Shown: positions 31,943 through 42,546 of the stretch, piece after piece
Layout: every line of letters begins with the position of its first letter
Position numbering within the stretch: position 1 is the stretch's first letter
From: Labrenzia sp. 011
GTDB taxonomy: Bacteria > Pseudomonadota > Alphaproteobacteria > Rhizobiales > Stappiaceae
Assembly (NCBI RefSeq): GCF_003075075.1
Contig: NZ_QCYM01000023.1
Location: forward strand, 1 to 64,000
DNA: 64,000 bases
Direction of reading: 5' to 3'
Program-made: the position numbers and the translations under genes
The notes under the pieces: model-generated
Told to the model about the DNA's origin: nothing
The model's input: the letters and a program-made list of their open reading frames with translations, nothing else
Databases searched by the model: none

Positions 31943-33034
31943 TCATACCGGCGGCGCCGGAGTGTCCTGCCCCCGGTCAATCGCCACACTCTTGATCAGC
32001 GCGGTCACGGACCTGCCAGGCTGCAGGCCGAGATCCGAAACCGAGGCCCGGGTCACCCGGGCGCGAATCCTCTGGCCGCCCAGGTTGCACAGGATTTCCG
32101 CGTAGGGACCCGTCTCCCCGGCAATGCTCTCGATTGTCGCCGCAAGGGCATTGCGAATGGACAGACCTTGCGGCGGGACGGTGGCGAGCGCCACGTCGCG
32201 GGCAAGGATGCGCAAGCGGACGGGGGCGCCCGGTTCGGCCGCCATGCCGGGAATCTGCAGCACCGCTCCGCCGATATCCACATGCGTGAGATCCCAGTCC
32301 GAATCGATCCGCGTGACGGTGCCGCTCACAAGCGCACTTGCCTCGCGGCGGCCGGTCACGCGAACCAGGTCTTCGCGGGCAAGCATGTCCGCGACGGTGC
32401 CGAAGGCCAGGGTCTTTCCCTGCGAGAGAAGCACCAGCGTATTGGACAGACGGGTCACTTCCTCGATGGAATGGCTGACATACAGGATCGGAATGGCCGC
32501 CTCGACGCAGAGACGGTCGAGATAGGGCAGGATATCGTTGCGGCGGGCGTGATCGAGATTCGCCAGCGGCTCGTCCATGATCAGCAGACGCGGACCGGAC
32601 AGCAGGGCCCGGCCGATGGCCACCCGCTGCCTTTCCCCGCCGGAAAGCGTCTCGGGCTTGCGGGAGAGCAGCGCCGTCAGCCCGAGCAGGTCGACAACTT
32701 CGCCGAAATCCCGTGTCCCGGACCTGCGGCCCGCCCAGCGCGCATAGGTAAGATTGGCCCGGACGCTCAGATGCGGAAACAGCCGCGCATCCTGGAACAC
32801 ATGGCCGATGCGCCTTGCCTGAACCGGCAGGTCGATGCCCTTGTCCGCATCGAACAGGATCGTGCCATCGACCGAAATGCGCCCCGACGACGGTGTCACC
32901 AGACCGGCGATCATGTTGGTGAGGGTGCTTTTTCCGGCGCCGGACTGGCCGAACAGGGCGGTGACGCCGTGGCCCTCAAACCGCGCGGCGAGATCGAACC
33001 GGCCGACACGGCCCCTGATGTCCACGTCAATCAT
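31943..33034 (-). CDS. modC: Molybdate ABC transporter ATP-binding protein ModC
   Basis: 363 aa from ATG 33034, overlapping the modB stop by 8 bp. Walker A FGQSGAGKST, signature LSGGERQR and Walker B LLIMDEPLANLD. From about residue 290 a Mop/TOBE oxyanion-binding domain follows (SIRNALAATIESIAGETGPYAEI), typical of ModC. Confidence 0.93.
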   Translation of the reverse strand: MIDVDIRGRVGRFDLAARFEGHGVTALFGQSGAGKSTLTNMIAGLVTPSSGRISVDGTILFDADKGIDLPVQARRIGHVFQDARLFPHLSVRANLTYARWAGRRSGTRDFGEVVDLLGLTALLSRKPETLSGGERQRVAIGRALLSGPRLLIMDEPLANLDHARRNDILPYLDRLCVEAAIPILYVSHSIEEVTRLSNTLVLLSQGKTLAFGTVADMLAREDLVRVTGRREASALVSGTVTRIDSDWDLTHVDIGGAVLQIPGMAAEPGAPVRLRILARDVALATVPPQGLSIRNALAATIESIAGETGPYAEILCNLGGQRIRARVTRASVSDLGLQPGRSVTALIKSVAIDRGQDTPAPPV

Positions 33035-33740
33035 GGCCGCCGCCCAGTCTGCCGCGCAGGCGGCGGGCGAAGATTTCGGAAGCAATCAGCGCAACGAATG
33101 CCACGGCAGCCGCGATCAGCGTCAGGCGAAAGGCGGCCAGGTCGCCGCTCGGGGTCTGTGTCGCGGTGTAGAGTGCAAGCGCCAGGGTGCGGGTTTCGCC
33201 GGGGATGTTGGAGACGAAGGTGATGGTGGCGCCGAATTCGCCCATCGCCTTGGCAAATCCCAGGATCGCGCCGCCGAGAATGCCCGGCACGGCCAGCGGC
33301 AGCGTTACCGTCAGGAAGGCGACCATCCGGTGGGCGCCGAGAGACCTGGCGGCCGCCTCCAGCTTGGGATCGACCGCCTCGAAGGAAATACGGATCGGGC
33401 GGACCATCAGGGGAAAGGCCATGACCCCGGCCGCCAGCGCGGCCCCGGCCCAGTTGAAGGCAAAGCTGATTCCGAAGGTGTCGAAGAGGAACGCCCCCGC
33501 AGGCCCCTTGCGGCCGAAAGCCAGGAGCAGGAGGTAACCGGTGACGACCGGCGGCAGGACGAGGGGCATGTGTACAAGCGCATTCACGATGCCATGCCCG
33601 GGAAAGCGGTAGCGCGCGAGAAGATAGGCGACCAGAACGGCAAGCGGCAGCGCCACGAGCAGAGCTGCTGCGGCCACTTTCAGCGTCAGGAGCAGGGCCT
33701 GCCATTCCGCCGGTTGAAGATGAAAAAAGTCCACGTACAC
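33027..33740 (-). CDS. modB: Molybdate ABC transporter permease ModB
   Basis: 237 aa, about five to six helices, with the EAA coupling loop AARSLGAHRMVAFLTVTLPLAVPGILGGAILGFAKAMGEFGA. HMPLVLPPVVTGYLLL is typical of ModB. It sits between modA and modC in the standard modABC order; a short inverted repeat (33761-33779) lies in the gap after modA. Confidence 0.93.
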   Translation of the reverse strand: MYVDFFHLQPAEWQALLLTLKVAAAALLVALPLAVLVAYLLARYRFPGHGIVNALVHMPLVLPPVVTGYLLLLAFGRKGPAGAFLFDTFGISFAFNWAGAALAAGVMAFPLMVRPIRISFEAVDPKLEAAARSLGAHRMVAFLTVTLPLAVPGILGGAILGFAKAMGEFGATITFVSNIPGETRTLALALYTATQTPSGDLAAFRLTLIAAAVAFVALIASEIFARRLRGRLGGGHD

Positions 33741-33826
33741 TCAATCTGCCGGTTTCGGACCGGCCGGACCCTCCGGCCGCTCGGATCGTCCCGTTTTCAG
33801 ATGTCTTTACCTGAACGCTGGACGAT

Positions 33827-34588
33827 CTACTCCACCTTATCGGTCACAAACCCCAGCGAGCGCAAGATTTCCTGCGCGCGCGCGCCGGCCAGATACTTCA
33901 GAAAAGCAGGCGCCGCCGGGTGGGTGTGAGCGCTTGTCAGCGCTGCCAGATAGCGGATCGGCGGGTGGCTGTCCCCCGGCAGTGTCGCAGCAATGACGAC
34001 CGCCGGCTCCACCAGGGCGTCTGTCCGGTAGACCAGTGCGAGAGGCGTGTCGCCGCGTGCGGCCGAGGCAAGCGCGATCCTGACATTTTCCATCGGTGCG
34101 AGCCTTGCGGAAACGGAAGCCCAGAGGCCGAGATACTCCAGCGCCGCCTTGCCGTAGCGCCCGGCGGGAACCGTCTCCGGATCGGCAATGGCCAGGCGGC
34201 CGCTACCGAGCGCCGCACGCAGGCCGTCCGGGGTCAGCGTCACTGCCTGGCTGTTTTCGGGGCCGACCAGAACCAGTGCGTTGGAGGCGAACTCCAAAAT
34301 GGTGTCGGCCCGGACCGCATCCCTGTCACGGACGTAGTCCATCCAGGCAGCATCGGCGGAAACAAACAGGTCCGCCGGCGCGCCGGCCTCCACCTGCCGG
34401 GCCAGCGTGCCCGTACCGGCGAAGGAGAACACCACATCGGTGCCGGTCTCCTCCTCGAAGGCAGCGGCGATGCCTTCCATGGCTTCACGCATGCTGGCCG
34501 CGGCAAACACGGTCAGCGGCGTTTGGGCGGCGGCCGGAAGGACCATGACCACAAACAGACACAGGATAAAAAACAAGCGCTGAAACAT
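33827..34588 (-). CDS. modA: Molybdate-binding periplasmic protein ModA
   Basis: 253 aa from ATG 34588, preceded by GGAGGAAAG. Signal peptide MFQRLFFILCLFVVMVLPAAA. Conserved ModA elements: LTVFAAASMREAMEGIA, FSFAGTGTLARQVEAGAPADLFVSAD, and PETVPAGRYGKAALEYLGLW. First gene of modABC. No ModE gene or clear ModE box was seen. Confidence 0.94.
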   Translation of the reverse strand: MFQRLFFILCLFVVMVLPAAAQTPLTVFAAASMREAMEGIAAAFEEETGTDVVFSFAGTGTLARQVEAGAPADLFVSADAAWMDYVRDRDAVRADTILEFASNALVLVGPENSQAVTLTPDGLRAALGSGRLAIADPETVPAGRYGKAALEYLGLWASVSARLAPMENVRIALASAARGDTPLALVYRTDALVEPAVVIAATLPGDSHPPIRYLAALTSAHTHPAAPAFLKYLAGARAQEILRSLGFVTDKVE

Positions 34589-34747
34589 CTTTCCTCCGGC
34601 GTTGCATTCAACTCCTGCCTTACGCCAGCCCGGACACCTGTTCAAGAGACGCGCCAGCCCGCCGCCAGAAGCGGCGGCGCACCCGTTTACGAAATTCTTA
34701 CAATGAAATGCGACAACCCGGGACGATCAGACAGGGAGTTTCAGCCA

Positions 34748-36698: not shown

Positions 36699-37532
36699 AT
36701 GCAGACTGCCGCAAACCGACGGACCGCCTTCAGAGCCTTGCACGAAAGGGGGCGGGCATTTCTGATGCCCAATCCCTTCGACATCGGATCGGCCCGCATC
36801 CTGGATGGCCTGCGGTTCGATGCAATCGCTACCTCCAGCGCCGGCTATGCCTGGACGCAAGGGGTGAGGGACGCGGAAGGCCTGATCAGCCGGGACGCCG
36901 CACTCGCCCATGCGGCAGACATCCTCGCCGCAACCAGCCTTCCGGTGAACGGAGATCTGGAAAACGGGTTTGGCGACAGCCCGGAAGACGTGGCCGAAAC
37001 GGTCAGCGGCGCCATCGAGACCGGCCTCGCCGGCTGTTCGATCGAGGACTACACGACCGATCCCGCTCACCCCTACTATCCGCTGGAGCAGGCGGTGGAG
37101 CGCATCCGGGCCGCAGCAGAGACGAAAAACAGGCTGGCGCCGGATTTCGTGCTGACCGCCCGCAGTGAGGGACCGGTGCATACCGACCATGAATTGCAGG
37201 AAACCATCAAACGGCTCAATGCCTTTGTGGACGCGGGCGCCGATTGTGTCTACGCGCCGCAGGTGACGGACAAGGAACAGATCCTGACTCTTCTGAAGGC
37301 CGTGAATGCGCCGCTCAACATTCTGGCCGGTCGCAGGAACTTTCACCTGACCCGAAAGGAACTCGGCGACATGGGTGTGACCCGTGTGTCCATCGGCTCC
37401 GGTCTTGCCCGGGTCGCCTACCGGGCCTTTACCGAAGCGGCGGTGGACATCAAGGACGGCGGCGCCTTTGGATGCTTCGACCGCATGAGCGAGGCGGTGG
37501 ATTTCGAATCTTTCCTGAAATCCAGACCCTGA
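36699..37532 (+). CDS. Isocitrate lyase/PEP-mutase superfamily protein
   Basis: 277 aa from ATG 36699, preceded by AAGGAGA. Superfamily landmarks: LMPNPFDIGSARILDGLRFDAIATSSAGYAW, the metal-binding VNGDLENGFGD, and GCSIEDYT. It lacks the KKCGH motif of true isocitrate lyase, so it belongs to the PEP-phosphonomutase/oxaloacetate-decarboxylase-like branch. Exact C-C or P-C lyase substrate not assignable; the neighbouring citrate synthases hint at keto-acid metabolism. Confidence 0.85.
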   Translation: MQTAANRRTAFRALHERGRAFLMPNPFDIGSARILDGLRFDAIATSSAGYAWTQGVRDAEGLISRDAALAHAADILAATSLPVNGDLENGFGDSPEDVAETVSGAIETGLAGCSIEDYTTDPAHPYYPLEQAVERIRAAAETKNRLAPDFVLTARSEGPVHTDHELQETIKRLNAFVDAGADCVYAPQVTDKEQILTLLKAVNAPLNILAGRRNFHLTRKELGDMGVTRVSIGSGLARVAYRAFTEAAVDIKDGGAFGCFDRMSEAVDFESFLKSRP

Positions 37533-37575: not shown

Positions 37576-38736
37576 CTAGCGTTCCCCCACATAGGCGGCT
37601 CTGGGCCGGATCTGTTCAGGGGCGGAATATTGTTCGAGGGCGTGGGCGATCCAGCCGGTCATTCGCGCCGCGCAGAAGATGATCTTGCCGGCATCCTTCG
37701 GCAGCTCATAGGTTTTCTGCACCGCCGCCAGAGCGAAATCGATGTTGGGCGCCCGGCCGTAAAGATCGTCGGCGACACCGATCAGCTGCGGCAGGCGCTC
37801 GACGAAGGGATGGTTCCGTTCGTCGCGGATCAGCATTTCCAGCAGGCACACGGCGCGCGGATCACGCTCCCGGTAGACGGAATGGCCGAAACCGGGCAGG
37901 CTTTCACCGCGGCCGAGCCGGTCGGACAGCACCGCCTCGATATCCGCTTCCGGTGTCAGATCCGCGAGCCAGGCGGTCACCCGGTCGGATGCCGCCCCGT
38001 GCCGCGGGCCGGCGAAAGCACCGAGACCGGAGAGCAGGGCCGCATGCAGCGGCGCGCGGGTGGAGGCGGCGCAGCGCACGGAAAAGGCGCTGGTATTGAG
38101 TTCGTGATCGGCGCAGAGCACCAGGGCGGCCCGGATCGCGTTTCGGCCGGCCGTGGAAACGCCATAGGCTTCAGCGAACTGGGTGTGGATCGGAACGGCC
38201 ACCGGCTTTGCATTCAAAAGCGCGGCGGTTCCGTAGCGCAGCAGCGCAGCACCCTTGGTCTGCAGCAGTTTCGGGGCATGGGTAAAGGCCGCCCTGTCCT
38301 GCAGCGGCCAGGCGGCAATGGCCATCATCAGCCGGTCCAGCGGTCCTAGGCCCTCCGGCAGATCGGGATATTTCTGCGGCGCCTTTTCCGCGAAGGGATC
38401 GTCCTCGGAACCCCATAGCAGTGTGGCGACCGTTTCCAGAGTGGAGTTTTCCGCCAGATCCGTCGCGCGCCGTCCCCGGTAGACCGGTCCGTCTTCGGAA
38501 ATGAGCGTCAGCTCGGTTTCCAGAACCGGATCGCCCGTCAAGGGGCGCATTCCGGCCTGATCGTCCGCCTTCCGGCCCTTCAGGCGACGAACATCCGCCG
38601 CGTCGTAGCGGCGCTGCTTGCCGGGACCGGCCACCGAGGAGATCAGCCCCCGGCTGACATAGGCATAGAGGGTGGCCGGCTGCACGCCGAGTTCGGCGGC
38701 GGCTTCGCGGGCGGAGAGATAGATTGGCTTGCTCAT
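37576..38736 (-). CDS. Citrate synthase with N-terminal MerR-like helix-turn-helix
   Basis: 386 aa from ATG 38736. Residues about 4-50 form a MerR/excisionase-type HTH (YLSAREAAAELGVQPATLYAYVSRG, RRYDAADVRRLKG). The rest is a citrate synthase fold with intact catalytic residues: GPRHGAASD (His), GFGHSVYRERDPRA (His) and APNIDFALAAV (Asp). It is divergent from a second citrate synthase and separated from it by 76 bp containing a 30-bp imperfect palindrome. The fusion suggests an enzyme-like sensor that binds its own promoter region; whether it still condenses acetyl-CoA with a keto acid is unknown. Confidence 0.88.
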   Translation of the reverse strand: MSKPIYLSAREAAAELGVQPATLYAYVSRGLISSVAGPGKQRRYDAADVRRLKGRKADDQAGMRPLTGDPVLETELTLISEDGPVYRGRRATDLAENSTLETVATLLWGSEDDPFAEKAPQKYPDLPEGLGPLDRLMMAIAAWPLQDRAAFTHAPKLLQTKGAALLRYGTAALLNAKPVAVPIHTQFAEAYGVSTAGRNAIRAALVLCADHELNTSAFSVRCAASTRAPLHAALLSGLGAFAGPRHGAASDRVTAWLADLTPEADIEAVLSDRLGRGESLPGFGHSVYRERDPRAVCLLEMLIRDERNHPFVERLPQLIGVADDLYGRAPNIDFALAAVQKTYELPKDAGKIIFCAARMTGWIAHALEQYSAPEQIRPRAAYVGER

Positions 38737-38742
38737 GTATTG

Positions 38743-38772
38743 ATTGTATTTATCAACGTTGATCAATGCAAT
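38743..38772. promoter_or_regulatory. 30-bp imperfect palindrome between two citrate synthase genes
   Basis: Arms ATTGTATTTATCAAC (38743-38757) and GTTGATCAATGCAAT (38758-38772) match at 13 of 15 positions around a perfect TCAACGTTGA core. It starts 7 bp before one start codon and ends 40 bp before the other, so one dimer bound here could control both genes. Confidence 0.65.
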
Positions 38773-38812
38773 GCTTTCTTCCTATCTGGCGCAAACAGAC
38801 AAGGAGATGACC

Positions 38813-39916
38813 ATGACAGAAGCACCAGATCCCGCCCGCATGATTCCCGATCCGACCGCCGGACTGGAAGGGGTCGTCGCCGCCACCACGAAACTGAGCC
38901 ATGTCGACGGCGAGAACGGCATCCTGATCCTGCGCGGGAAAAGAATTGAGGACCTTGCGGGCAAAGCCCCGTTCGAGACGGCGGTTCGGCATCTGTGGCA
39001 GGATTTCGACATCGCCGGCGGCGCGGCCCTGCAGGCGGTCTTCGGACAGGCCCGCATCGCGGCCTTCGCGGCAGTTCCCCTGCTTGAAGATGCGGCGCCC
39101 GAATTGTCCGTCTTCGAGCGCATGCAGCTGGGCCTGGCAGCCCTGCCGCTGAAAGGTGATCTGCCCGATGCGGTCGCCATCGCCGGAGCCCTGCCGGTGT
39201 TTCTGGCCGCGTCCCACAGGATCGCATCGGGACGGGTGCCTGTCGCCCCGGACAATACGCTGGAGACGGCCACGGACCTGTTGCGGATGCTGACCGGTGC
39301 GCTGCCGCCGGACGGCCATGCGGCGGCCCTGAACCGCTATCTGGTAACCATCCTCGATCACGGGCTGAACGCCTCCACCTTCACCGCCCGGGTGATCGGC
39401 TCCACCCAGGCGAACCTGAAACAGGCGGTTCTCGGCGCCATGGGCGCCTTGAGCGGCCCGCTGCACGGCGGTGCTCCCGGGCCGGTGCTCGACATGATCG
39501 ACGCCATCGGCCAGCCGGAAAACGCGCAAGCCTGGATCGGGGAGGCGCTTGCCCGCAAGGAGCGGCTGATGGGCTTCGGTCACCGGATCTACCGGACCCG
39601 CGATCCGCGTGCCGACGTCCTGAAGGCGGGACTGAAGCTGCTGGGACCGGACAATCCCAAGGTCAGGCTGGCGGAAGACATAGAAACTGCGGCGCTGGCC
39701 GCCCTGAAACGGGCCAAGCCGGACCGGCCGCTGGAAACAAATGTGGAATTCTACACGGCGGTCCTTCTGGATGCGATCGGCATCGACCGTACGCTTTTTA
39801 CCCCGCTTTTCGCCACCGGCCGCACGCCGGGCTGGTGCGCCCATGTGCTGGAACAGCGGCAGACAGGCAAGCTGATCCGGCCGTCTTCCCGCTATGTGGG
39901 GCCGCAAGCCGGGTGA
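38813..39916 (+). CDS. Citrate synthase paralogue (CitA-like)
   Basis: 367 aa. AAGGAG (38801-38806) abuts an ATG at 38807, so the ATG at 38813 with 6-bp spacing is preferred. Catalytic histidines lie in GPLHGGAPG and GFGHRIYRTRDPRA. The third catalytic residue, usually Asp, is Glu here (ETNVEFYTAVLLDAIG), a substitution also known in CitA-type citrate synthases. Divergent partner of the HTH-citrate synthase; substrate could be oxaloacetate with acetyl- or propionyl-CoA. Confidence 0.87.
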   Translation: MTEAPDPARMIPDPTAGLEGVVAATTKLSHVDGENGILILRGKRIEDLAGKAPFETAVRHLWQDFDIAGGAALQAVFGQARIAAFAAVPLLEDAAPELSVFERMQLGLAALPLKGDLPDAVAIAGALPVFLAASHRIASGRVPVAPDNTLETATDLLRMLTGALPPDGHAAALNRYLVTILDHGLNASTFTARVIGSTQANLKQAVLGAMGALSGPLHGGAPGPVLDMIDAIGQPENAQAWIGEALARKERLMGFGHRIYRTRDPRADVLKAGLKLLGPDNPKVRLAEDIETAALAALKRAKPDRPLETNVEFYTAVLLDAIGIDRTLFTPLFATGRTPGWCAHVLEQRQTGKLIRPSSRYVGPQAG

Positions 39917-40831: not shown

Positions 40832-41305
40832 TCACCGCTCGCCGAGCGGCAGCAGGTTGTCGTCTTTCAGCGTTTCCATGGCGATGGAGGAGCGCACGTT
40901 ATGGACCGCCTCCTGGGGCAGCAGGTCGTCATTGATGATGCGGCTGAGCGCCTTCAGGTCCGGCACCACGATCTTCAGCATGTAATCGACATCGCCCGTC
41001 AGGGTGTGCGCTTCCTGAACCTCCGGCATGGCGGTGACCATGTTCCTGAACTTTCGGGCGTTTTCCTTGCTGTGCGCGCCCAGCGTCACGCCGACATAGG
41101 CGGTGACACTCAGCCCGAGGGCTTCCGGATCGAGTGCCGCCCTGTAGCGGCGGATGATCCCCGCTTCCTCAAGCTTCTGCCGGCGGCGGGAGACCTGGCT
41201 GGCGGACAGGCGGATCACCTCGCCAAGCTCGGCATTGGTCAGCGCCGCATTTTCCTGCAGGGTTGCCAGCAGTTTCACGTCATAGGCATCCAGTGCGATT
41301 TTCAT
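40832..41305 (-). CDS. Lrp/AsnC-family transcriptional regulator
   Basis: 157 aa from ATG 41305. HTH at residues about 5-50 (LDAYDVKLLATLQENAALTNAELGEVIRLSASQVSRRRQKLE) and a RAM/AsnC ligand-binding domain with ALTGDVDYMLKI-like sequence (TLTGDVDYMLKIVV). Divergent from hpd, so it is the likely tyrosine- or aromatic-responsive regulator of that gene. Confidence 0.92.
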   Translation of the reverse strand: MKIALDAYDVKLLATLQENAALTNAELGEVIRLSASQVSRRRQKLEEAGIIRRYRAALDPEALGLSVTAYVGVTLGAHSKENARKFRNMVTAMPEVQEAHTLTGDVDYMLKIVVPDLKALSRIINDDLLPQEAVHNVRSSIAMETLKDDNLLPLGER

Positions 41306-41321
41306 GCACAACTCTTCTATA

Positions 41322-41380
41322 TTTTGCACTATTTGCGCACCATCATACGCAACTTCACGTGTTTTGCACTCTTTCTGCGC
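41322..41380. promoter_or_regulatory. In-phase direct repeats between lrp-like gene and hpd
   Basis: TTTTGCACT occurs at 41322-41330 and 41362-41370, exactly 40 bp apart, and each is followed by a similar GCGC-containing tail. Spacing near four helical turns on one DNA face fits cooperative Lrp/AsnC octamer binding. Confidence 0.55.
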
Positions 41381-41433
41381 GTCTTTGCCGTCATACTCGT
41401 GCGAACAGCTGCATTGACACAGGAGAGTTCATC

Positions 41434-42546
41434 TTGGGACCGTTTCCGCACGACGCGCCACCGGCGAAAATCACCGCAGACAATCCGGCAGGCACGGACG
41501 GGTTCGAATTCGTCGAGTTCGCCCATCCGGAGCCGGAAAAGCTGGACGCGCTGTTCCGCAAGATGGGCTATCTCCCGGTTGCCAGGCACAGAACGAAAAA
41601 CATCACGCTCTACCGCCAGGGCGACGTCACCTATGTGCTGAACGCGGAACCGGACAGCCACGGCATGAAATTCGCCGGCGAACACGGCCCCTGCGCCCCG
41701 GCCATGGCCTGGCGGGTCGTCGATGCGCAAAAGGCCTTCGAGCATGCGGTCGCAAAGGGGGCCACCCCCTATGACGGCAACGACAGGACGCTGGACGTTC
41801 CGGCCATCGTCGGCATCGGCGGGTCGCTGCTCTATTTCGTCGACACCTATGGCGACAAGGGCTCTGCCTATTCGAAGGATTTCGACTGGCTGGGCGAGAC
41901 CGACCCGAAACCGCAGGGTGTCGGCTTCTATTATCTCGACCACCTGACCCACAACGTCTTTCGCGGCAACATGGACAAGTGGTGGGATTTCTACCGCGAC
42001 CTCTTCAATTTCAAGCAGATCCACTTCTTCAACATCGACGGGCGCATCACCGGCCTCGTCAGCCGGGCGATCACCAGCCCCTGCGGCAAGATCCGCATTC
42101 CGCTGAACGAGTCCAAGGACGACACCAGCCAGATCGAGGAATATCTGAAGAAATACAATGGCGAAGGCATCCAGCATGTCGCCGTGGGCACGGACGATAT
42201 CTACGACAGCACCGACCGGCTGGCCGACAACGGGCTGAAATTCATGCCGGGCCCGCCGGACACCTACTACGAGATGTCCCACGACCGGGTGACGGGACAT
42301 GACGAACCGATCGAGCGCATGAAGCGCCACGGCATCCTGATCGACGGCGAAGGCGTGATCGATGGCGGCACGACGAAGATCCTTCTGCAGATCTTCTCCA
42401 GGACCGTCATCGGGCCGATCTTCTTCGAATTCATCCAGAGAAAGGGCGACGAGGGCTTCGGCGAAGGCAACTTCCGCGCCCTGTTCGAATCCATCGAAGA
42501 GGACCAGGTCCGCCGGGGCGTTCTGAAGCCGGAGGCCGCGGAATAG
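41434..42546 (+). CDS. hpd: 4-hydroxyphenylpyruvate dioxygenase
   Basis: 370 aa. No ATG fits; the TTG at 41434 lies 6 bp after AGGAGAG and gives the family N-terminus GPFPHDAPP. Non-haem iron ligands are visible: His in LDHLTHNVFRG, His in GIQHVAVGTDD and Glu in PIFFEFIQRKGDEGFGEGNF. It converts 4-hydroxyphenylpyruvate to homogentisate in tyrosine breakdown; later pathway genes are not in the window. Confidence 0.95.
   Translation: MGPFPHDAPPAKITADNPAGTDGFEFVEFAHPEPEKLDALFRKMGYLPVARHRTKNITLYRQGDVTYVLNAEPDSHGMKFAGEHGPCAPAMAWRVVDAQKAFEHAVAKGATPYDGNDRTLDVPAIVGIGGSLLYFVDTYGDKGSAYSKDFDWLGETDPKPQGVGFYYLDHLTHNVFRGNMDKWWDFYRDLFNFKQIHFFNIDGRITGLVSRAITSPCGKIRIPLNESKDDTSQIEEYLKKYNGEGIQHVAVGTDDIYDSTDRLADNGLKFMPGPPDTYYEMSHDRVTGHDEPIERMKRHGILIDGEGVIDGGTTKILLQIFSRTVIGPIFFEFIQRKGDEGFGEGNFRALFESIEEDQVRRGVLKPEAAE

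Follow-up and report, generated by a model that had tools for sequence, protein, structure and literature searches.

What does a citrate synthase that carries a DNA-binding domain do when its gene stands head to head with that of a second citrate synthase? The question is raised by a locus in Labrenzia sp. 011, close relatives of which bear the name Roseibium. The window analysed, by which we mean the whole stretch of 64,000 nucleotides (positions 1 to 64,000 of contig NZ_QCYM01000023.1), contains a head-to-head pair made up of a helix-turn-helix (HTH) domain fused to a citrate synthase, hereafter HTH-CS (P0001; 37576–38736, minus strand, 386 amino acids), and a CitA-type citrate synthase (P0002; 38807–39916, plus strand). 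Taken as a whole, the data are best explained by HTH-CS being a regulator with a citrate synthase sensor, which very probably controls its own gene and that of its neighbour. The proposed regulator and target gene share a short spacer, and a site in this spacer stays with HTH-CS across several bacterial phyla while the neighbouring gene changes.

The HTH-CS protein and the conserved site in its spacer

The initial annotation had described a MerR-like HTH fused to a citrate synthase with kept catalytic residues, and profile searches bore this out. Pfam matched HTH_17 (PF12728) at residues 6–53 of P0001 (E 7.7e-8; 32.9 bits against a cut-off of 27) and Citrate_synt (PF00285) at residues 67–379 (E 6e-58); P0002 also matched the latter family. 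An AlphaFold2 model built with 70 aligned HTH-CS sequences (mean pLDDT 92.9) comprises a winged HTH, a segment predicted with low confidence (residues 60–68, pLDDT <50) and a complete citrate synthase fold at about residues 61–386. When the whole model was used as the query in a fold comparison (VIA-align), solved citrate and methylcitrate synthases scored Z 31–35 among the 50 matches listed. Profiles, model and fold comparison thus agree on a DNA-binding domain joined to an enzyme fold. In the window, both on the minus strand, the winged HTH (HTH_17/MerR-like) occupies 38578–38721 and the citrate synthase fold (residues 67–384), the proposed sensor domain, occupies 37585–38538. Of the 26 NCBIfam models matched by HTH-CS, 25 were listed, and it scored too low for the cut-off of every one of them, for example with 154 bits against 421 for TIGR01800.

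The active-site residues of P0001 are H211, N214, H246, H285, R294, D333, R358 and R377, for which we assume the catalytic and substrate-binding roles familiar from work on citrate synthases. All except H285 were invariant in 70 diverse HTH-CS sequences, and H285 was kept in at least 90% of them. Among the 133 readable proteins from 134 HTH-CS loci, the same seven positions were kept in every case and H285 in 129, being Q or N in the others. Control by substrate occupancy, as first suggested, would fit this conserved active site.

The spacer between the two genes measures 70 bp up to the first ATG of P0002 (38807) and 76 bp up to the second (38813), which by eye has the better-placed AAGGAG; the 76-bp spacer given earlier therefore holds if the second ATG is taken. 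We re-found in it the 30-bp palindrome of the initial annotation (38743–38772), which is ungapped, with arms at 38743–38757 and 38758–38772 that pair at 13 of 15 positions, a score reached by 4 of 20,000 sequences obtained by shuffling the bases of the 70-bp spacer. The palindrome had been regarded as the shared site, and the conserved element does overlap it; the conserved unit, however, is not the 30 bp but a 23-bp element with three half-sites, TCAA-N2-TTGA-N9-TCAA, at 38740–38762. On account of its conservation we propose this element, TCAACGTTGATAAATACAATCAA on the minus strand, as the operator.

Conservation was assessed in the 134 HTH-CS loci, some of them from genomes present twice, with L103 at a contig edge left out of the upstream counts, L103 and the broken HTH-CS of L080 left out of the trees and the structure alignment, and plain citrate synthases or repeat loci (L001–L003, L030–L033) left out of the set. 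The pattern TCAA-N2-TTGA-N5-9-TCAA was exact in 118 of 133 HTH-CS upstream regions (mean of 0.0 in shuffled sequences), 114 of which had N9, and the three blocks TCAA, TTGA and TCAA each reached or approached 2 bits in the operator profile. Lack of a conserved palindrome in orthologous spacers had been named at the outset as a refuting result, and the outcome favoured the first interpretation, a conserved site being found there: its N8-9 form, sought in a slightly wider stretch, was exact in 119 of 133 readable upstream regions. At loci with a CitA-type partner it was exact in 95 of 103, with one mismatch in a further six; at loci with a class III CoA-transferase it was exact in 21 of 21. The other ten loci comprised three with an exact site, two with one mismatch, one with three mismatches and four without, the unreadable L103 included. 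A Nitrospirillum locus (L116; G433:C4:293209-293250) has overlapping or tandem copies of the operator in one spacer upstream of HTH-CS.

Site conservation strongly supports the view that HTH-CS acts through this site on its own gene and on the divergent one, as first suggested for the palindrome. With high confidence HTH-CS would be a sequence-specific autoregulator, and it very likely also controls the divergent gene.

A constant proposed operator with changing partners

HTH-CS was present in all 25 same-genus genomes searched, that of our strain included, and in 42 of 385 genomes of the class at E <= 1e-50. The family spans Proteobacteria, Deinococcota, Chloroflexota, Gemmatimonadota and Actinomycetota and is filed in databases as citrate synthase; plasmid records call its members citrate synthase family protein, citrate/2-methylcitrate synthase or citrate synthase. 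In a tree of 37 HTH-CS and 37 CitA-type sequences, HTH-CS formed a single separate clade (SH-aLRT 100), and the fusion therefore appears old; this tree held just two other citrate synthases and its long branches meet, which makes it uninformative on deeper origins.

A CitA-type partner was found at 103 of the 134 loci, on the opposite strand in all 103 and convergent in none, with a gap of 24–196 bp. The remaining 31 loci comprised 21 with an opposite-strand class III CoA-transferase, identified through NCBIfam and PDB matches of one member and PF02515 in another, and ten with neither gene, among them L119, which has a DRE-TIM enzyme. For the 42 genomes of the class, the partner was CitA in 31, the CoA-transferase in two, a DUF2332 protein in three, a methyltransferase in two, unrecognised in three (G166, G396 and G318) and unreadable in one (G260); Pfam was run on one methyltransferase and one DUF2332 partner, the other DUF2332 partners being assigned by similarity. 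The class I methyltransferase genes diverge from HTH-CS in two alphaproteobacterial genomes (L251, 6330–7167; L261, 5236–6145), one locus having an exact operator and the other one mismatch. When 15 genomes were searched whole, a CitA-type gene exceeded the family cut-off in the three CitA control genomes and in Ktedonobacter, and none did so in 11 partnerless or CoA-transferase genomes. On a quick HTH-CS tree (97 rows), the CitA or CoA-transferase label requires at least two changes. In Roseibium hamelinense (L080, 3886–5166), HTH-CS is split into two frames, the operator has decayed to three mismatches and no CitA-type gene in the genome passed the cut-off; the module seems to have been lost there as a unit.

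The CitA-type partner itself bears the family signature clearly, as P0002 matched Citrate_synt with E 2.8e-93 and scored 399.7 bits against the cut-off of 332 for NF009005. It has Glu in place of the catalytic Asp, as the initial annotation had observed. The same Glu occurred in all 102 readable sequences of the 103 CitA-type partners and, by alignment, in the CitA sequences of Bacillus subtilis (2c6x) and Mycobacterium tuberculosis (8gmf), so that the residue is, on this comparison, a trait of the CitA family. The idea that it marks a defective paralogue with lost catalysis was dropped for this reason.

To what extent the site is confined to HTH-CS was seen from whole genomes. The form TCAANNTTGATN7ATCAA had a single exact match in the 5.1-Mb genome of our strain, which is the site in this window; together with two one-mismatch and 27 two-mismatch sites this made 30, compared with four for a reversed-pattern control. 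A wide regulon of strong sites, considered for this genome, was unsupported in view of the one exact site. Among 18 other genomes, at least one exact match was found in 15 and exactly one in 13, some of them away from HTH-CS. The stricter form TCAATMTTGATN7ATCAA, which our genome lacks because its two variable bases are CG, occurred 30 times in the 385 alphaproteobacterial genomes, once in each of 30 genomes. Of these sites, 25 lay within 100 bp upstream of HTH-CS (coordinates compared by eye) and one more preceded an HTH-CS gene truncated at the end of its contig (G188), giving 26 of 30 at HTH-CS; around the other four, no HTH-CS or CitA match was found within the fetched 3-kb stretches. The fairer measure comes from the 12 HTH-CS genomes that were not used to define the motif, 9 of which had the strict site at HTH-CS. 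In the genome of a Paraburkholderia with an HTH-CS gene without an operator (L090), two exact sites stand elsewhere (G427:C19:62665-62687 and C55:3785-3807), and the former has a gene resembling citrate synthase at a distance of about 3 kb.

Plasmid loci gave a further view of the partners. We chose 16 of them from the 60 listed of 94 matching records, none used for motif definition, and 14 had an exact N8-9 site, 11 at HTH-CS and three elsewhere. At HTH-CS, the operator stood beside CitA in Agrobacterium, Ensifer and Pararhizobium; beside a DRE-TIM enzyme annotated as pyruvate carboxyltransferase in two Deinococcus; beside DUF2332 in Roseomonas and Pseudoroseomonas; and beside an MFS transporter or a 2-hydroxyacid dehydrogenase in Paraburkholderia, Thioclava, Caballeronia and Comamonas. 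In the 2-hydroxyacid-dehydrogenase group, position 214 is T or S in seven loci and position 211 is Q in three of these, as if the ligand had changed together with the target. The divergent DRE-TIM (HMGL-like) partners (Deinococcus L202, 2140–3438, and L210, 2864–3907; Ktedonobacter L119, 2558–3857) belong to the homocitrate/isopropylmalate synthase group and may be Re-type citrate synthases, a non-homologous replacement of CitA, although Ktedonobacter has a CitA-type gene elsewhere. On an Acidovorax carolinensis plasmid (L214, 3968–5251), an HTH-CS homologue lies downstream of a MarR gene.

The three sites away from HTH-CS belong to Burkholderia cepacia, Burkholderia multivorans and P. sprentiae, in which HTH-CS closes a same-strand cluster. 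The exact site is absent at HTH-CS and stands at the far end of the cluster, between its first gene and a divergent D-glycerate dehydrogenase gene. Such a site at a far promoter is hard to explain unless it is an operator of HTH-CS at promoters that HTH-CS controls; being related, the three loci count as one case.

Proposed mechanism and competing explanations

All promoter elements were assigned by consensus matching. Judged by eye, the operator contains the putative −10 of HTH-CS (TACAAT, 38743–38748, minus strand), with TTGCAT at 38766–38771, 17 bp upstream of it, and its first half-site makes the putative −35 of citA (TTGATC, 38759–38764, plus strand), which is followed by a weak putative −10 (TATCTG, 38783–38788). 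Across 105 operators, the sequence most like TATAAT on the strand of HTH-CS started at operator position 14 (on average 4.15 of 6 bases agreed, two of which the motif itself fixes); the operators began 22–74 bp before the extrapolated start codon of HTH-CS. On the divergent strand, a −10 at the right spacing was mildly enriched across the family (2.90 versus 2.30 ± 0.09 matches). In this genus, the HTH-CS transcript would be nearly leaderless.

We infer DNA binding, the oligomeric state, default repression and the ligand of HTH-CS as follows. HTH-CS would be a dedicated one-component transcription regulator with the citrate synthase fold as its sensor domain. Probably dimeric like other citrate synthases, it would bind TCAA-N2-TTGA-N9-TCAA and cover its own likely −10 together with what is likely the −35 of its divergent neighbour, thus limiting its own expression and that of its neighbour, here the CitA-type citrate synthase. 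A ligand in the active site, likeliest a 2-oxo acid such as oxaloacetate, alone or together with an acyl-CoA, would alter domain closure and hence the affinity for DNA. As the operator lies over the putative core promoter of HTH-CS and provides a −35-like half-site on the other strand, repression of both genes with relief by the ligand is favoured; we lean towards repression rather than activation, and we regard an active-site ligand as the probable signal. An oxaloacetate-type ligand is a more tentative proposal, and its prospects fall a little short of even.

Two systems in the literature bear on these readings. In Caulobacter, according to the consulted portions of PMC7083601, citB and citC (CCNA_03757 and CCNA_03758) are consecutively numbered additional genes for citrate synthase; CitB, which shares 37% identity with B. 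subtilis CitA, is active as a citrate synthase in Escherichia coli, and CitC fails to rescue an E. coli gltA mutant. CitB and CitC are probably this very pair; the term helix-turn-helix has no occurrence in the main text of PMC7083601. In Streptomyces coelicolor, SCO5831 and SCO5832 (citA3/citA4) are two putative citrate synthase genes with one shared intergenic region; MtrA binds a probe from it, and the genes are described as citrate synthases under MtrA in the sections consulted of PMC12323332. The divergent HTH-CS/CitA pair of Embleya, also of the Streptomycetaceae, suggests a further example in citA3/citA4.

HTH-CS might instead be a trigger enzyme, that is, one that functions as a citrate or 2-methylcitrate synthase and in addition binds DNA, expression being set by the flux through its active site. 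The near-universal retention of the active-site positions speaks for this reading. We still consider it unlikely, as Caulobacter CitC, a probable though unverified orthologue, had no citrate synthase activity in E. coli (PMC7083601, portions consulted), N214, H211 and H285 are replaced in seven, three and four loci, respectively, most of which nevertheless keep the operator site, and the genome of our strain has, on contig C3, another gene for citrate synthase, its third, that is GltA-like by reading of its sequence. It is doubtful, too, that HTH-CS is a MerR-style activator, or that it autoregulates only and leaves the divergent gene to other regulators. The position of the operator near the HTH-CS side and over a TATAAT-like −10 would suit such a role, as would the binding of MtrA to the citA3/citA4 spacer; it accords poorly with the divergent orientation at 103 of 103 CitA loci, with an operator that stays constant while the targets differ, and with the Burkholderia-group loci, which have the operator at the divergent promoter and none at HTH-CS. 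These two readings overlap the best explanation, and the odds given to them are not exclusive. A third proposal treats the HTH as a relic or as a domain for assembly, with HTH-CS and CitA combined in a mixed enzyme complex and an unrelated regulator acting at the palindrome; it draws on both neighbouring genes being of the citrate synthase family. It is highly improbable: the site accompanies HTH-CS even where CitA is lacking (no CitA-type gene passed the family cut-off in the 11 partnerless or CoA-transferase genomes), the CoA-transferase loci all have it in exact form, and few strict sites (the 4 of 30) lie away from HTH-CS.

Several observations weigh against a dedicated regulator with this operator. 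The exact N8-9 site was missing in 14 of the 133 readable upstream regions, namely at 8 of 103 CitA loci and at 6 of the 9 readable loci where both CitA and CoA-transferase are absent; L059, L090 and L118 had no site-like sequence within three mismatches and no recognised partner either. The loci are related, with 124 distinct upstream regions (ten identical pairs came from genomes fetched twice), and 30 of the 42 alphaproteobacterial HTH-CS genomes contributed loci to the definition of the motif. The motif by definition includes the TTGA that forms part of the divergent −35, and the intact catalytic residues of HTH-CS fit a working enzyme equally well. Weaker further sites are possible in the genome of our strain, and a Chloroflexi genome (G435) had 19 one-mismatch sites compared with two in the control. 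On plasmids, Embleya L203 with its divergent CitA pair had the operator core only, and the Acidovorax L214 stretch had no operator and several replaced active-site residues. In the open-licence literature, no data on binding, ligand or expression came to light for any HTH-CS member, nor did any experiment on a member as a regulator.

Neighbouring genes, related regulators and meaning

A gene of the PEP-mutase/ICL superfamily (P0003; window 36699–37532, plus strand) is convergent with HTH-CS and had been taken as the hint of a pathway. That hint did not hold, and we rejected the gene as part of the module: besides its orientation, among the 79 named loci (flanks up to 4 kb), 13 had a homologue close to HTH-CS, all of them Stappiaceae, and P0003 scored 88.3 bits against the cut-off of 354.4 for the methylisocitrate lyase PrpB model TIGR02317. 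From reading of translations, a molybdate-type ABC transporter set lies at 31943–34645 (minus strand), and an Lrp/AsnC-like regulator gene is divergent from a hydroxyphenylpyruvate dioxygenase-like gene at 40832–42546.

In regulators of the MerR family, a winged HTH is followed by a long dimerisation helix. HTH-CS resembles them in its N-terminal winged HTH and may do so, in this genus, in a site that lies between the putative −35 and −10. It differs in having a citrate synthase fold as sensor and in the absence of the dimerisation helix from the model, where a helix at residues 46–57 leads into the stretch of low confidence at 60–68; accordingly, the MerR_1 match spans only profile positions 2–47 of 69. 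The putative HTH-CS promoter, TTGCAT-N17-TACAAT by eye, also has a 17-bp spacing compared with the 19–20 bp that are the norm for MerR promoters. The pair recalls B. subtilis CitA and CitR, in which a minor, Glu-bearing CitA-type enzyme is divergent from its regulator; CitR is a LysR protein, whereas the regulator here has a citrate synthase fold with an HTH.

The closest likeness in design is to the MocR/GabR regulators, in which an HTH is fused to an aminotransferase fold: both join a DNA-binding domain to a complete metabolic enzyme fold as sensor and are often divergent from their target. In HTH-CS, the fold is that of citrate synthase rather than a pyridoxal phosphate (PLP) aminotransferase, the winged HTH is of the HTH_17/MerR rather than the GntR type, and the operator has three TCAA/TTGA half-sites. 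Enzyme folds as sensors of regulators are thus already known, and a citrate synthase fold in that role would be a new variant; no description of a citrate synthase-type regulator was found in the open-licence literature.

Citrate synthase was probably recruited once, anciently, as a sensor that would read oxaloacetate-like 2-oxo acids or acyl-CoAs, and it would have kept one operator code while its targets changed repeatedly. If this is true, many genes annotated as citrate or methylcitrate synthase would be transcription regulators, with consequences for annotation and for models of metabolism. The family would offer a naturally swapping regulator-target pair, useful for studying how enzymes evolve into sensors, and a regulator that senses conditions at the entry to the tricarboxylic acid (TCA) cycle, with a defined operator on which ligands can be tested.

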